A stretch of 64,000 nt of DNA from Verrucomicrobiaceae bacterium. GTDB lineage: Bacteria; Verrucomicrobiota; Verrucomicrobiia; Verrucomicrobiales; Verrucomicrobiaceae. The stretch lies in the NCBI GenBank assembly GCA_016795365.1, contig JAEUHN010000040.1:1-64000 (forward strand), read 5' to 3'. The translations under genes were made by a program, and so were the position numbers. Shown here piece after piece: positions 37,011 through 52,713 of the stretch. The notes below the pieces were generated by a model. It searched no databases. It saw only the letters and a program-made list of their open reading frames with translations, and was not told where the DNA came from. The stretch's first letter is position 1; every line of letters starts with the position of its first letter.

Positions 37011-37119
37011 GCTTTAGAGAGCGCCCACCTTTGGCAGCATGTGACGAATGCGCAACCTGGGAGGGAGGGTAATTCTCGATGACTTGTTCACATTGCCCGC
37101 CTCACCTCGACAAGGAAAA

Positions 37120-37145
37120 GCCCGGGAGCCATGACGCTCCCAGGC
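37120..37145 (-). terminator. Intrinsic terminator after the caspase-helical gene pair
   Basis: A ten-base stem with one mismatch (GCCTGGGAGC / GCTCCCGGGC on the minus strand) and a six-base loop is followed directly by TTTTCCTT. It lies 96 bases downstream of the stop at 37242 in the 231-base gap before purF, and ends the minus-strand unit coming from the caspase locus. The rest of that gap shows nothing else recognisable. Confidence 0.7.
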
Positions 37146-37241
37146 CCGAACCTCGACCGAACCACGGTCTCTGACGAAATCTCAATCTTCCTGCACCTCA
37201 CGCGAGCCGCCTCACGGAGCCTCTTTGCACTGCAATCCCAA

Positions 37242-38288
37242 TCAAGGTGCCGGGGTTCCCGACGGCGCGGCGGTTTCATCGGCGAGACGAATTGCGTATT
37301 CAATGCTCGCGCGTTCGCCTCCCGTCGTCTGGCTCAAGGCCTTTTCCAGGACTTGGCGGGCATCGGCTTTCCCTTGAGTGCCGGCAACGGCCATCGCCAG
37401 TAGCGAGCGCTGGGCAGGGTCCGTGGCCTCCACCAGAAGTGACCTGAGAGTTGCCAGCGTAGCGGCAGCATCCGGCTGCCTCTGAGCCCAATAGTGCAGG
37501 GTGTCGGCAAGGTCATCCGTGGTGGCCAGACCCGATTGCGCCAGTGCCAGCAAAGCCTGGGGAGTAGAGGGGCTCAGGCAGGTCTCCAGACGAGCCAACG
37601 CCTCCTGCACCATCTGGGCGTCACCTTTCTGACCGGCCACCACGGCGGAGCCGGAGTAAAACCAGGGGTTGTCGAGCGACTCGATCTGCGAACGAACCAA
37701 GGAGGTGGGCTCCGAGGCCCAGCGCTCCGTCAGAGCGTTCCCGACCGACTCGCCGTTGTGATCCGTGCGCAGGCCTTTGAACACAACTTCCTGCATGGGC
37801 TCGCTGAGCGATGAAGTCTGCCCTTGCGAGGGAATCAGGGCCTCCACCAGTGCGCCAGAAGCGCCCTCGCTCAGGGACACGTTGCCCAGATCCAGCAACC
37901 ATGCGCCTGCTCCAGCCTGACGGGCTTCAAGATCGCACACCGCCTTCAAAAATGCTTCAGCCTGGGCCTTGGTCGCGGTGCCCAGGAAGGTAGCTGCCGC
38001 GATAGCGCGCTCGGCACGCGACTTGGAGCCGTCGAGCGCGACCAGCATCTGCTGGTCGGACTCGACTGACTGGACCATCGAATGGCTTTTCTCGTCTTCG
38101 CTGCCACTCCTGGTCTCGAGATCACTCACGATCTTCTGGATTCCCACCGTAGCAGGTTTCAGCCCTGCCTTGGATGTCATGTGATCACTGATCATTCTGG
38201 ACGGGCTGTCCGCCAAGTGCCAGGCGCCGAAGGCAGCAAGGGCGGCCATGGGGAGGGAGGCGGTGGCGATGATCAGATTGGTTTTCAT
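37242..38288 (-). CDS. Exported or membrane-anchored helical-repeat protein of unknown family
   Basis: The 348-residue product has an N-terminal hydrophobic segment (about residues 5-25, then HLADSPSRM) that could be a signal peptide or anchor. The rest is alanine- and leucine-rich and predicted by eye to be entirely helical, with recurring helix pairs (RAERAIAAATFLGTATKAQAEAFL, QALLALAQSGLATTDDLADTLHYWAQ, SLLAMAVAGTQGKADARQVL). This resembles HEAT- or TPR-like scaffolds without a clean consensus. I do not recognise the family. It lies 60 bases downstream of the caspase-like gene, same strand, with no terminator between, and a strong terminator follows, so the two probably form a unit. It could be a substrate, inhibitor or scaffold for the protease. 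Confidence 0.6.
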   Translation of the reverse strand: MKTNLIIATASLPMAALAAFGAWHLADSPSRMISDHMTSKAGLKPATVGIQKIVSDLETRSGSEDEKSHSMVQSVESDQQMLVALDGSKSRAERAIAAATFLGTATKAQAEAFLKAVCDLEARQAGAGAWLLDLGNVSLSEGASGALVEALIPSQGQTSSLSEPMQEVVFKGLRTDHNGESVGNALTERWASEPTSLVRSQIESLDNPWFYSGSAVVAGQKGDAQMVQEALARLETCLSPSTPQALLALAQSGLATTDDLADTLHYWAQRQPDAAATLATLRSLLVEATDPAQRSLLAMAVAGTQGKADARQVLEKALSQTTGGERASIEYAIRLADETAAPSGTPAP

Positions 38289-38348
38289 GAGGATCGAAGA
38301 GTTCGGGAGTTTCTGAGACCAGGAGTATGGCGCTGAAGCGATGCGATC

Positions 38349-39857
38349 TTACCTGTTGATTACCTCATATTGCGTCGTGCCGTTGCCATCGAAGAGCTGG
38401 GGATCCTGGCGGCCGCTGGAGCTGCTGTAGCCAGCCGAAGCTGCGGCAAAGGCTTCCTCCATGCTGATGAGGCGATTGTTGTTCCTGTCGTAGGAAGCGG
38501 TGCTGAAGCCCACCACCAGACGGCCTGTCAGCCAGCCATTACGGCCCACTTCATAGCTGTATTGATTGCCACGGCAGCCCGTGATCACCACATAACCATT
38601 CACGCTGAGCGACCGAGCGAAGAGATCGGTGGCACGGGCATCAGGAGCAGCTGTGCCCTCGACGCGATGGTAGCGAATGACAGGCGCAGGACCGCCAGTG
38701 GTCGAGCGACCGATGAAGAGACCACTGTTGCAGCTGTCGAAGACCAGGGAGATCTTCGTTGAGGTGCTGATGGTCGCCAGATCAGCGCGGAGTTCCGTGT
38801 CCGAGAGGAGGCTGGCCGCATTGGTCGTGTCAGCCGGGCAAATCGCACCCATCGTGCCGATCGCGGTGCCGTGGCCGCTGTAGTAGAAGAGGAACTGCGA
38901 AGCCCCGGTGGACAAGGTCTTGATGGCGCTGCGGATGGCCGCCTTGGTCGCCTGACGATCGGTCAGCTTGGTCACTCTCCAGCCCGAGGAGATCAGCTTG
39001 GCACCGATGTCATTCACATCGTTCACGCAGGCACCGAGGTCATTGACCGTGGGACTGATGTAGTCATTGATGCCCACGAGAAGCGCCACCTTGCTGCCAG
39101 GAGGGTTGGTTCCGCCGCCAGGGGTCGTCGTGGGTGTGAAGTTCAGGTTCAGCGTGTAGCTGCCCGTTGCCGAACCATAGCCGCGAACGGTGATGTAGTA
39201 GGTGCCAGCGGTCACCGTGGAACTGAGGGAGAAGTTCCGATTGGAGCCCACATCATCATTGCTGGCGAGCTGCACACTCGACGCATTAAGCAAGGCGCCC
39301 ACGGTGTCCGTGCTGCCCGTGGTGCCGGCCTGGAGGCTGCCAGCCTGGGACAGCGTAACAGCGAACACATCGATATCGCCAATCACTCCGATCACGCCCG
39401 AACGGCTTGCTTGATTGGAGGAAAGCGTCAGACGAGTCGCGGCGGCCACCGTGTTCCCGTGATCATCCGATGGTGTCGGCGTGAAGGCATTGACCAGCAC
39501 GTAGTCTCCTGTGGAGGTGGTGCGGTAATGGCGAACCTTGACGTAGTAAGTGCCAGCGGACAGCGTCGCGCGAATGCTGAAGTTTCGATTGTTGGAGCTG
39601 ACATCGTCATGCGAGAACAGAACGGTGCCGCTGCTGTTGAGCAGCTGTCCATAGGTGTCGGTCGTGCCCGTCGAATTTACGACGAAATCTCCACGGGATG
39701 TCAGGTTCAGGCGGAAGAAGTCCACGTCACCTGCTGGGTTGATGGCGCAGCTCTTGGAGCTGTTGAGGTTGAAGGATTCGGCCGTGGCGAGGGTATCGTT
39801 GGCAGCCGCGTAGCCAGCGAGGCTGGCGAAGGCGAGGGATGTCAGGATGAGTTTCAT
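38349..39857 (-). CDS. Secreted caspase-like (peptidase C14) protease with two PPC domains
   Basis: The 502-residue protein has a signal peptide (residues 1-19) and two bacterial pre-peptidase C-terminal (PPC) domains, about 21-125 and 131-243. Each has the DxDxFxxxL, TDTxGxLLN, DDVxSNxNFS and GTYYxxVR motifs. A Thr/Pro/Gly linker leads to a caspase/metacaspase domain beginning KVALLVGIN (residue 256). The catalytic dyad is complete: His329 in YYSGHG and Cys376 in FDSCNSG. Residues 457-468 (DRNNNRLISMEE) match an EF-hand loop, which fits the calcium dependence of metacaspases. Caspase-fold proteases outside the cytoplasm are unusual. The gene is divergent from an ECF sigma factor, with a 185-base gap, and upstream of a helical protein gene. 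Confidence 0.88.
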   Translation of the reverse strand: MKLILTSLAFASLAGYAAANDTLATAESFNLNSSKSCAINPAGDVDFFRLNLTSRGDFVVNSTGTTDTYGQLLNSSGTVLFSHDDVSSNNRNFSIRATLSAGTYYVKVRHYRTTSTGDYVLVNAFTPTPSDDHGNTVAAATRLTLSSNQASRSGVIGVIGDIDVFAVTLSQAGSLQAGTTGSTDTVGALLNASSVQLASNDDVGSNRNFSLSSTVTAGTYYITVRGYGSATGSYTLNLNFTPTTTPGGGTNPPGSKVALLVGINDYISPTVNDLGACVNDVNDIGAKLISSGWRVTKLTDRQATKAAIRSAIKTLSTGASQFLFYYSGHGTAIGTMGAICPADTTNAASLLSDTELRADLATISTSTKISLVFDSCNSGLFIGRSTTGGPAPVIRYHRVEGTAAPDARATDLFARSLSVNGYVVITGCRGNQYSYEVGRNGWLTGRLVVGFSTASYDRNNNRLISMEEAFAAASAGYSSSSGRQDPQLFDGNGTTQYEVINR

Positions 39858-40042
39858 GGAGAGGCGGTTGATTGAGTGGTTGCGTCGGGAGCCCGTGAGG
39901 GATGACGAGGGCTATTGCCCCTCCACCGCGAAGTCTTATGCGTGGCACCAAAAAAATTTGAACCCTTTGTGCTGAAGCCTTCTCCAAGGCGCCCGGCGCT
40001 CCCTTCTTGCAATCCAGGAGCGAATGTCCACACTCTTCGCCC

Positions 40043-40669
40043 ATGCATGTCACGACCCGGTTCACTCTGATCGAAGCGCTGCGCAATGGCGGCGGCGCCA
40101 GTGCCTGGGAACGGTTTTACAACACCTACAGCAGCGTGGTCATCTCTTTTGCCCGGAGGCAGGGCTGTGATGAACACGCCGCCCTGGATGTGCTGCAGGA
40201 GACCATGATGGTCATTCTTCGAAAGTTGCCCGACTTTCAGTATGACCGGGAGCGCGGACGCTTCCGCAACTGGCTCATGACCATCGCCAGCAACAAAGTG
40301 CGCGAAGCACGGCGACGGGCCAAAGTGGACCGGCTGGTCTCGCTCGATGCGCCCCAGGAAGGCACTCATCCATCCCTCGCCGACCAGCTCTCCGCTGAAA
40401 CGGAAAGTGCCTCAGACAACCTGGAGCGTGACTGGCGCAGCACCCTTCTGGAAACAGCACTCCGCAAGATTCTCGAAGACCCACGCACCAATTCGGTGTC
40501 CATCACCATCTTCCGTCAGGTGGCGCTGGAGAACATCGAACCATCGGAGGTGGCCCGCCTTCACGGCATGAAGGAGAACAATGTTTATCAGATCAAAAAC
40601 CGGATCATGACTCGCCTGAAAGCGATCATCGCCGAACTCGAAACCGGGGCAGTCTCCGAGGACTGCTGA
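40043..40669 (+). CDS. ECF-type RNA polymerase sigma factor
   Basis: The 208-residue protein has sigma region 2 (FYNTYSSVVISFARRQG, DVLQETMMVIL, then FRNWLMTIASNKVREARRR) and region 4 at the C terminus (VALENIEPSEVARLHGMKENNVYQIKNRIMTRL), separated by a long linker rich in Ser/Glu. No region 3 is present. The start is set at 40043 (MHVTTRFTL); an in-frame codon at 40007 would add twelve residues without conservation. No anti-sigma factor is adjacent. Instead an FHA-domain protein follows after 24 bases, which resembles PVC ECF groups linked to Ser/Thr kinases rather than to classical anti-sigma proteins. It lies head to head with the caspase-like gene, a plausible regulatory target. Confidence 0.9.
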   Translation: MHVTTRFTLIEALRNGGGASAWERFYNTYSSVVISFARRQGCDEHAALDVLQETMMVILRKLPDFQYDRERGRFRNWLMTIASNKVREARRRAKVDRLVSLDAPQEGTHPSLADQLSAETESASDNLERDWRSTLLETALRKILEDPRTNSVSITIFRQVALENIEPSEVARLHGMKENNVYQIKNRIMTRLKAIIAELETGAVSEDC

Positions 40670-40693
40670 ACCCCTTTTACATATCCCATTCCC

Positions 40694-41155
40694 ATGAACG
40701 ACTCTGATTGGCCCTCTCACCTGAGCAGCGAGGAACTGCGCACCGCCACCATCGCGATCGAAAGACCACCTGCGGATACGCTTGCGATCAAGAACCGCAT
40801 GGAACGCGCGGCCCGAATCCTCAGCCAGCTCGACGAAACTCCACGCGTGCCATCGCTGGTAGTCGTCAAACCTCCACTGACGGCAATTCGAGTCCTGCCC
40901 ATCAAGGAAGAGATGAACGTCGGCAGACACGCTGACTGCGATGTTCCGGTGCCCGAAAGCAAGGCCATGAGCCGCCAGCACTTCGTGCTTCGAGTGACCG
41001 ACGGCCTGCTGATGATCGAGGACCTCGGCTCCAAAAACGGCACCTTCATCAACGACCCGAAGACCCGCCTCACCCAGTCGCGCGCCCTGCGCGACGGAGA
41101 CATGATCTTTGCCGGTGAAATCGCATTCCTGTTCGTGAACGCCTGCGACGAGTAA
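40694..41155 (+). CDS. FHA-domain protein encoded with the ECF sigma factor
   Basis: This 153-residue soluble protein has a helical N-terminal half (residues 1-45, LKxRMERAARILSQLDE type) and a complete FHA domain: NVGRHADCDVPV, MSRQHFVLR, DLGSKNGTFIND and LRDGDMIFAGEIAFLF. These give the phosphothreonine-binding Arg, Ser, His and Asn of the family. FHA domains bind phosphothreonine peptides, so the protein probably reads the output of a Ser/Thr kinase located elsewhere. The N-terminal helical region might contact the sigma factor. It begins 24 bases after the sigma gene and converges with purM with seven bases between stops. Confidence 0.9.
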   Translation: MNDSDWPSHLSSEELRTATIAIERPPADTLAIKNRMERAARILSQLDETPRVPSLVVVKPPLTAIRVLPIKEEMNVGRHADCDVPVPESKAMSRQHFVLRVTDGLLMIEDLGSKNGTFINDPKTRLTQSRALRDGDMIFAGEIAFLFVNACDE

Positions 41156-51798: not shown

Positions 51799-52713
51799 TC
51801 AGTGCGAATCAGGTTTGAGCCGCCAGACGGCCACCGGCTCAGGCTGGCCCTTCACCTCGTGCGTCCCTGCGGGCTCGAAATACTCGGCGGCTCCCGGCCA
51901 GCCATTGGCAAAGTCTTCGCTGATTAGCACCGGAGTCTCCAGTTTCCGCGTGAGGCTCTCGATGCGGAAGGTCACGTTTACCGCTTCACCAACCGCCGTA
52001 TTCACTCCCCGGCCCATGGCTCCAAGCGCGACCTCGCCCACATGCAGGCCAATGTGGCACTTCACGGCAATGCCGAGATTCTCCCGCACCCAGCGGCGGG
52101 TAAGCGAATTGCTCGCCTCCGGATTGCTCAGCATTCGCGCGGCCTCGGCGGCGAGCGCGTGCGTCTTGGCATCCACACGCGGCCAATAGGCGAAGACTCC
52201 ATCGCCAATAAACTTGTCGATCGTGGCTCCACGCGGCTTGAGGATGGTCTCGCAGTCGGCATACCACTCGCGAAGCATCTTGGCCACTTCCTCGGCGGTG
52301 AGCTGCGAGGAGATGCGGGTAAAGTCGCGCAGGTCGCCCACCAGCAGTGTCGCTTTGATCGTCTTCACAGGCAGCGCCATGGTGCGCAGCATCTGTGTTT
52401 GCATCCCGTGAATCGAAGCGCCGTCCTCGTCATCATCCTGATCAAAAATCAGCACCAAGGTGCCAAGCTGCACCCGGTCCCCCGTGCGCAAGGCGCGGGC
52501 CGCCGTCAGGGCCACATCATTGACGTAGCTGCCATTGGCGCTGCCGAGATCGGTGATCCACCAATGATTGCCTTCACGGCGAATCGTGGCGTGCTGGCGG
52601 GATATTCCGCCGTCCTGCAAACGAATCGTGGCATCCTGACTCCGACCGATGAGGTTGAAGTCTTCCAGCGGGAACTCCACGCCGGTATCCACTATTCGAA
52701 GTATTGCGCCCAT
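51799..52713 (-). CDS. FHA domain-class III adenylate/guanylate cyclase
   Basis: The 304-residue protein has an N-terminal FHA domain (LIGRSQDATIRL, ISRQHATIRR, DLGSANGSYVND; residues about 20-90), an acidic linker (DQDDDEDG) and a class III cyclase domain from about 119. Metal-binding Asp127 (GDLRDF) and Asp171 (KFIGDGVFAYW), the likely base-selecting Lys167, and the transition-state pair Asn246/Arg250 (GEAVNVTFRIE) are all present, so it should be active. Coupling of FHA to a cyclase suggests that phosphothreonine signalling controls cAMP (or cGMP) output. No effector or kinase is adjacent; a glycine-zipper lipoprotein gene follows. Confidence 0.93.
   Translation of the reverse strand: MGAILRIVDTGVEFPLEDFNLIGRSQDATIRLQDGGISRQHATIRREGNHWWITDLGSANGSYVNDVALTAARALRTGDRVQLGTLVLIFDQDDDEDGASIHGMQTQMLRTMALPVKTIKATLLVGDLRDFTRISSQLTAEEVAKMLREWYADCETILKPRGATIDKFIGDGVFAYWPRVDAKTHALAAEAARMLSNPEASNSLTRRWVRENLGIAVKCHIGLHVGEVALGAMGRGVNTAVGEAVNVTFRIESLTRKLETPVLISEDFANGWPGAAEYFEPAGTHEVKGQPEPVAVWRLKPDSH

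Follow-up and report, generated by a model that had tools for sequence, protein, structure and literature searches.

What does an extracytoplasmic function (ECF) sigma factor control when its gene is followed by that of a forkhead-associated (FHA) protein in place of an anti-sigma gene, and faces the gene of an exported caspase homologue? This question is raised by positions 37,242 to 41,155 of a 64,000-nucleotide stretch from a Verrucomicrobiaceae bacterium (contig JAEUHN010000040.1; the whole stretch is called the window below). We consider it probable that a kinase signal read by the FHA protein activates the sigma factor, which would then switch on the neighbouring export gene, so that the locus would act as a signal-to-secretion switch. 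An earlier note on this DNA, the original prediction, had placed four genes here, a caspase and a helical partner on one strand and the sigma factor and the FHA protein on the other; open reading frame (ORF) calls and domain matches agree with it (Table 1).

The sigma factor has the sigma2 and sigma4 regions of the ECF family (TIGR02937, 72.8 bits at a cut-off of 42.9, E = 2.5e-20, residues 21-194), and ATG 40043 is its most likely start. Its score against the Sig-70_gvs1 model of Rhodopirellula and Verrucomicrobium (TIGR02989) is 58.1 of the 124.55 bits required. The FHA gene starts 24 bp after the sigma stop codon, and its product contains an FHA domain (Pfam, 62 bits, cut-off 20.7, E = 7.1e-17) in which the residues that contact phosphothreonine are present (G77-R78, S93, H96, N115).

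Relatives of this pair were sought in 57 related genomes, in 387 genomes of the order, with class- and phylum-wide profiles and in GTDB contigs (genomes and loci carry our labels, G and L). Among the 57 relatives, the coordinates of sigma and FHA matches coincide as pairs in G038, G014 and G013, and in G000 (contig 40) and in G001 of the same genus both fall within a single fused protein. A profile built from three FHA-paired sigmas gave a score gap from 188 to 121 bits over the 387 genomes, with FHA directly downstream in all eight genomes above it. The GTDB contigs added the pairs of L231 (Spartobacteria), L233 (Lentisphaerae) and L235, and the class- and phylum-wide profiles four more (G427, G489, G528 and G896), all with FHA; a weaker match in G460 has none. 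In total, 17 sigma-FHA pairs and two fusions were collected, from Verrucomicrobiota and Lentisphaerota. In a maximum-likelihood tree of 78 sigmas, 11 FHA-paired ones including that of the window form one group (support 95/98), each with FHA directly downstream, while the sigmas of L233 and L235 are long branches of unsure placement. The neighbouring group has a kinase gene directly downstream of the sigma gene in its deeper members. On the strength of the clade, the tree and this kinase-paired neighbour, we take the sigma-FHA pair to be old and co-inherited, as judged by sequence, with kinase-partnered sigmas among its nearest kin; the original prediction, which saw FHA in the place of an anti-sigma gene, was right in this respect. 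One record with a sigma-FHA locus, CAMDJM010000006.1 (L237 / L245), is titled Akkermansia muciniphila; the species name of this bin is probably wrong.

Region sigma2.2 normally carries the motif DxxD, which contacts the beta' clamp. Its first acidic residue is kept in 4 of 15 FHA-paired sigmas, compared with 24 of 25 kinase-paired and 33 of 36 other sigmas (Fisher 2.6e-7, a P value that is too small because the sequences tested are related). This residue is missing from ECF43 sigmas, in which phosphorylation supplies the charge (PMC8999054, PMC13147305). In the clade of the window, the replacing residue varies (A, T, S, Q, R or L), and phosphorylation at this position is therefore unlikely as a common mechanism; Thr is found at position 46 only in G013, G014 and L231. 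An FHA partner that aids the engagement of sigma and polymerase when phosphothreonine is present would fit better, and the sigma-FHA fusions argue for direct contact of both proteins. Two candidate marks were dropped: an invariant Thr5 of the sigma, which is common to kinase-paired and other ECFs, and a GarA/OdhI-like N-terminal phospho-motif on the FHA protein, whose N-terminal region aligns too poorly.

The divergent gap between the caspase and sigma genes (185 bp, 39858-40042) contains one copy of a promoter-like element, 56 bp before the caspase ATG and oriented towards the caspase. The sequence CGCATAAGA is common to the gaps of the window, G143, G111 and G084, with an A/T tract before it and SCAAT 14-16 bases after it. 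A variant with CGTAAGA occurs in G489, G528, G896 and L231, and the derived consensus is CG(CA)TAAGA-N14–17-SCAAT. A scan of the locus for sigma-70-type promoters found none. The strict form, the only one used in genome-wide scans, matches once in the whole 6.7-Mb genome of the window, in the caspase-sigma gap, and the regulon may therefore be the caspase operon alone. Across 16 genomes it was found once each in G000, G111 and G084 (always in the gap), three times in G143 (one in the gap) and once in G024, with no matches in the other eleven; the extra matches in G143 and G024 were rejected as promoters, as they have no A/T tract and are not gene-start-like. When both variants are counted, there are 13 sites in 324 kb of sigma-FHA loci and none in 1.09 Mb of other loci, a count in which the element was partly defined on the loci searched and seven of the 13 sites are independent of that definition (four in G528, two in L231, one in G084). 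Dinucleotide shuffles gave 0-1 matches each. The 9-mer alone is only modestly significant (6 of 1000 shuffles reach 4 of 9), and the weight is carried by the bipartite element. An exported ORF starts within 150 bp downstream of 7 of the 13 sites, compared with 5.7% of random positions. Because this conserved element points at the caspase gene, the divergent layout appears to reflect regulation, as had been suggested from the layout itself. The predicted regulatory link from sigma to caspase gene is well supported by these comparisons, and the window sigma would thus transcribe the caspase gene.

Four copies of the element lie in one 5-kb stretch of G528 (L278:3103-8427), apparently a small local regulon. 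A single copy lies upstream of a 1276-aa protein (L248:11683-15513) that is likely a fusion of a GMC-type oxidoreductase and a glucan-branching-type enzyme.

The same four-gene locus was not found among the 57 relatives. The closest relative of the pair, on contig 55 of G143 (UBA2429, Verrucomicrobiaceae), which was found by reading PPC neighbourhoods, has a sigma 55% and an FHA protein 45% identical to those of the window. It has the same divergent arrangement, with FHA and sigma on one strand and an exported S8-PPC protein on the other (both domains over Pfam cut-offs). The caspase gave domain-level matches only in the 57 relatives, with PPC as the stronger part, and over the 387 genomes of the order all matches except the caspase itself are PPC-only; the helical partner matched none of the 57 relatives but itself. 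Exported C14 proteins are present in relatives, in the short loci examined without adjoining sigma or FHA. Of the two observations on which the original prediction had staked the association, homologous caspase genes near the pair elsewhere were thus not seen, and a conserved promoter in the gap was. By these matches, the sigma-FHA pair is shared with other genomes, and the caspase with its helical partner is confined to that of the window.

Protease cargo is C14-PPC in the window, S8-PPC in G143, and Trypsin_2 with a helical exported partner in G038 and G057, the G038 partner being a homologue of that in G057. The fusions of G000 (contig 40) and G001 stand in an operon with a kinase and have an S8-PPC gene nearby. 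Other exported cargo consists of a 325-aa protein (G111), LPP20-type and lipoprotein genes (G489, G528) and a 307-aa protein (G896). In L231 the cargo looks broken or mis-assembled, and G063 and L233 have neither protease nor kinase close by. Peptidase genes of the cargo kinds are rare elsewhere: they account for 11 of the 682 called genes in the compared loci, and most of the 11 belong to the cargo loci themselves or to loci selected for caspases. Across these loci, the constant part is the sigma-FHA switch and the exported cargo varies. The unit would therefore be a signal-to-secretion module open to reuse, not a caspase-based death system, and its earlier description as a caspase system is not supported.

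Besides the relatedness of the tested sigmas and the partial circularity of the element count, several observations weigh against the proposed switch. The element is missing in the clade members G038, G057, G063 and G066; G038 and G057 have another one before their trypsin genes (A/T tract, TRTAACGG, RCATGAC), identified by eye only, which fits their separate place in the tree. Of the two sites in G084, one is followed by no gene and the other by a gene whose product has no signal peptide. Signal peptides were called throughout by a hydrophobicity rule, not by SignalP. The window sigma has AALD in sigma2.2, with the first acidic residue lost and the last one kept, and no Thr at the ECF43-type phosphosite (46-49). 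Finally, the 64-kb window contains no Ser/Thr kinase gene, and none adjoins the sigma gene as in ECF43, ECF59, ECF61 and ECF62.

The missing Thr in sigma2.2 and the missing kinase gene, together with about half of the pair loci having no kinase nearby, would suit an FHA protein that works without phosphorylation, as a plain anti-sigma factor or co-activator with another trigger. We regard this as unlikely, since the phosphothreonine-contacting residues are kept in most members and a kinase gene lies within about 4 kb of nine pair or fusion loci (L231, L235, G057, G066, G084, G013, G014 and the two fusion loci), one of which shares an operon with an FHA-bearing kinase. Ser/Thr phosphorylation, previously named as the trigger, is a plausible control of the sigma in view of these kinases, of the fusions that share an operon with a kinase gene and of the acidic loss in DxxD, and we claim it at that strength only.

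The element might also serve the sigma-FHA pair as an autoregulatory promoter, not the exported gene opposite: in five loci, among them G084 with no divergent gene, its distance upstream of sigma is 66-101 bp. This seems decidedly improbable. In G896 the element adjoins the exported gene at a distance of 405 bp from sigma and therefore belongs to the exported gene, which fixes its direction; sites in L231 and G528 stand in front of exported genes at a distance from the sigma start (in G528 a gene for a 337-aa exported protein and a lipoprotein operon follow such sites, as does the FHA gene); and the A/T tracts stand upstream of the sigma-proximal half, where an UP element would be placed for the outward direction. 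Chance, with the pair regulating other genes and the caspase operon merely adjoining, would agree with the caspase and its partner having no homologues near sigma/FHA elsewhere, yet it is very unlikely given a strict element whose only copy in the genome has the described place and orientation, and given the same layout with another exported protease in G143. Almost no credence can be given to a programmed-death or anti-phage device comparable to the EACC/TRADD-N caspase systems that include an ECF sigma, or to the CHAT protease of type III-E CRISPR and its RpoE-like sigma: a caspase-fold protease does stand beside an ECF sigma, ECF genes beside EACC2-caspases are described (PMC8195603) and the window sigma matches the III-E sigma model weakly, far below its cut-off, but STAND, EACC and TPR parts are all missing from the caspase, which instead bears a signal peptide and PPC domains and scores 48 bits against the EACC1-associated caspase model NF047832 (cut-off 140), and the cargo of orthologous switches is a subtilase, a trypsin or lipoproteins.

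We thus favour the signal-to-secretion switch, which can be described as follows. Sigma and FHA protein would work as a single regulatory unit. A Ser/Thr kinase whose gene lies elsewhere in the genome would phosphorylate a threonine of the sigma, of the FHA protein or of the kinase itself; we infer both this kinase and activation rather than inhibition as its effect. The FHA domain would read the phosphothreonine and let the sigma, with its weakened polymerase-contact motif, join core RNA polymerase. The sigma would recognise CGCATAAGA-N14-GGCAATA in the divergent gap and switch on the exported PPC-PPC-caspase with its helical operon partner, and the caspase would have its place and task outside the cytoplasm. 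Surface processing or degradation of exported proteins, or attack on neighbours, seem likelier tasks than self-killing, because in relatives this place is taken by exported proteases of ordinary kinds and by lipoproteins; nothing was found in favour of the cell death or phage response listed in the original prediction. We believe and doubt in equal measure the combined reading that this is an unnamed ECF group in which the FHA protein (fused to the sigma in some species) acts as a phosphothreonine-dependent sigma gate, instead of an anti-sigma factor or dedicated kinase, and which controls a single exported cargo operon each time via its own promoter, the cargo here being an exported metacaspase.

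Table 1. Features of the caspase/sigma-FHA locus in window coordinates.
Feature	Position	Strand	Basis
Rho-independent terminator-like hairpin closing the caspase/helical operon	37118..37147	-	12-pair stem, short T tail
Second gene of caspase operon, 348-aa protein with N-terminal hydrophobic stretch, predicted all-helical	37242..38288	-	AlphaFold2 (AF2)
Exported caspase homologue (C14): signal peptide, PPC, PPC, Peptidase_C14	38349..39857	-	Pfam, alignment
Peptidase_C14 domain	38394..39092	-	Pfam
Two PPC domains (aa 44-109; approx. aa 150-237)	39147..39728	-	PF04151, two stretches; second boundary approximate
Predicted sigma target promoter of caspase gene, CGCATAAGA-N14-GGCAATA	39913..39942	-	Conserved in G143, G111, G084
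A/T tract directly upstream of predicted -35, at the place of an UP element	39950..39959	.	Sequence; similar in G143, G111, G084
ECF sigma of FHA-partnered clade, sigma2.2 motif AALD instead of DxxD	40043..40669	+	TIGR02937, tree, alignment
FHA protein: ~70-aa helical N-terminal segment (helicity predicted) and FHA domain	40694..41155	+	Pfam, alignment; N-terminal helicity from sequence

The caspase belongs to peptidase family C14 (PF00656, 65.3 bits, cut-off 21.4), and the E-values of its PPC and Peptidase_C14 matches, 3.3e-11 and 8.8e-18, are both beyond the curated cut-offs. The catalytic residues and signal peptide claimed earlier are in place: H329 (38871-38873) and C376 (38730-38732) align with the SGHG and DSC.SG motifs of the solved GSU0716 (3bij) and metacaspase-9, and the N-terminus MKLILTSLAFASLAGYAAA is a signal peptide by the hydrophobicity rule. 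GSU0716 and metacaspases are the best solved relatives of the C14 domain. The helical partner contains no Pfam family over cut-off; its AF2 model (18 helices) is of low confidence (predicted local distance difference test, pLDDT, 46) and was discarded as too weak for use. Kinship with the 408/416-aa helical partners of the G038/G057 trypsin loci was ruled out, as there is no similarity.

The boundaries were also predicted correctly, with the hairpin on the minus strand at one end and purM (TIGR00878 over cut-off) as right neighbour. The region is no richer in predicted terminators than its shuffles. The left neighbour is purF-like, with a TIGR01134 match below its cut-off. A second FHA protein of 304 aa is encoded at 51799-52713 (-), outside the sigma-FHA pair.

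Further arrangements were noted around kinases. About twenty ECF sigma genes of G000, among the loci read (L124-L150), have a Ser/Thr kinase gene directly adjoining, and in L139 (G000 contig 11) a kinase-partnered sigma faces an exported trypsin-PPC, the layout of the window with a kinase for FHA. Several sigmas of the kinase-partnered neighbouring group face an exported FG-GAP/DUF7453 protein; kinase-partnered sister sigmas beside large exported FG-GAP_2/DUF7453 proteins, found in several genomes (L079, L249, L250, L257), make this a second recurring cargo. The kinases near the G014 and G013 pairs (L075:10723-13224, L076:10363-12873) carry HYDIN/ASH Ig-like and FGE-sulfatase domains.

The locus offers a concrete, testable case of phosphorylation-gated bacterial transcription in which the partner, an FHA reader, is of a new kind, a promoter is predicted and direct contact is suggested by gene fusions. 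An exported metacaspase would also answer to a defined signal, and this in a phylum with few metacaspases in one survey (PMC4933709). The locus further suggests caspase-fold proteases as interchangeable cargo beside subtilases and trypsins rather than as death effectors. Already known are kinase-linked ECF groups and ECF genes near caspase-like proteases (ECF54, EACC2 systems), and the clade of the window may coincide with a numbered ECF group. The ECF reviews searched do not mention an FHA partner, and the accessible parts of the open literature with both terms gave no statement of an ECF-FHA pair. In one report, the ECF gene RB1790 of Rhodopirellula baltica is induced by salt and RB1789 is an FHA gene (PMC2754498); the consecutive numbers suggest a planctomycete ECF-FHA pair, with adjacency taken from the numbering only.

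Like metacaspases and orthocaspases (GSU0716, 3bij; metacaspase-9), the window caspase has a C14 domain with the H/C dyad; unlike them, it is exported, has two N-terminal PPC domains and stands in a divergent operon with predicted regulation. ECF54 sigmas, with subtilase, carboxypeptidase and CHAT caspase-like neighbours (PMC8999054), likewise have no anti-sigma gene and protease neighbours that include a caspase-like fold, a resemblance that does not imply membership in this sequence group. There, however, the proteases are proposed to control the sigma, whereas here the predicted target promoter of the sigma belongs to the exported protease, and the neighbour that stays the same is FHA. The kinase-associated groups (ECF43 with EcfP/PknT and EcfK/PknS, ECF59, ECF61, ECF62, ECF217) share with the window the lack of an anti-sigma gene and an adjoining gene of Ser/Thr phospho-signalling; the window sigma, with the first acidic residue of sigma2.2 lost and the last kept, resembles ECF43 in part in its weakened motif, and the wider sigma family of the window includes many kinase-partnered members. 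In contrast to these groups, the window sigma has an FHA reader, not a kinase, as its partner and no Thr at the ECF43 phosphosite, and its clade has its own predicted promoter element and a swappable exported cargo that is often divergent.

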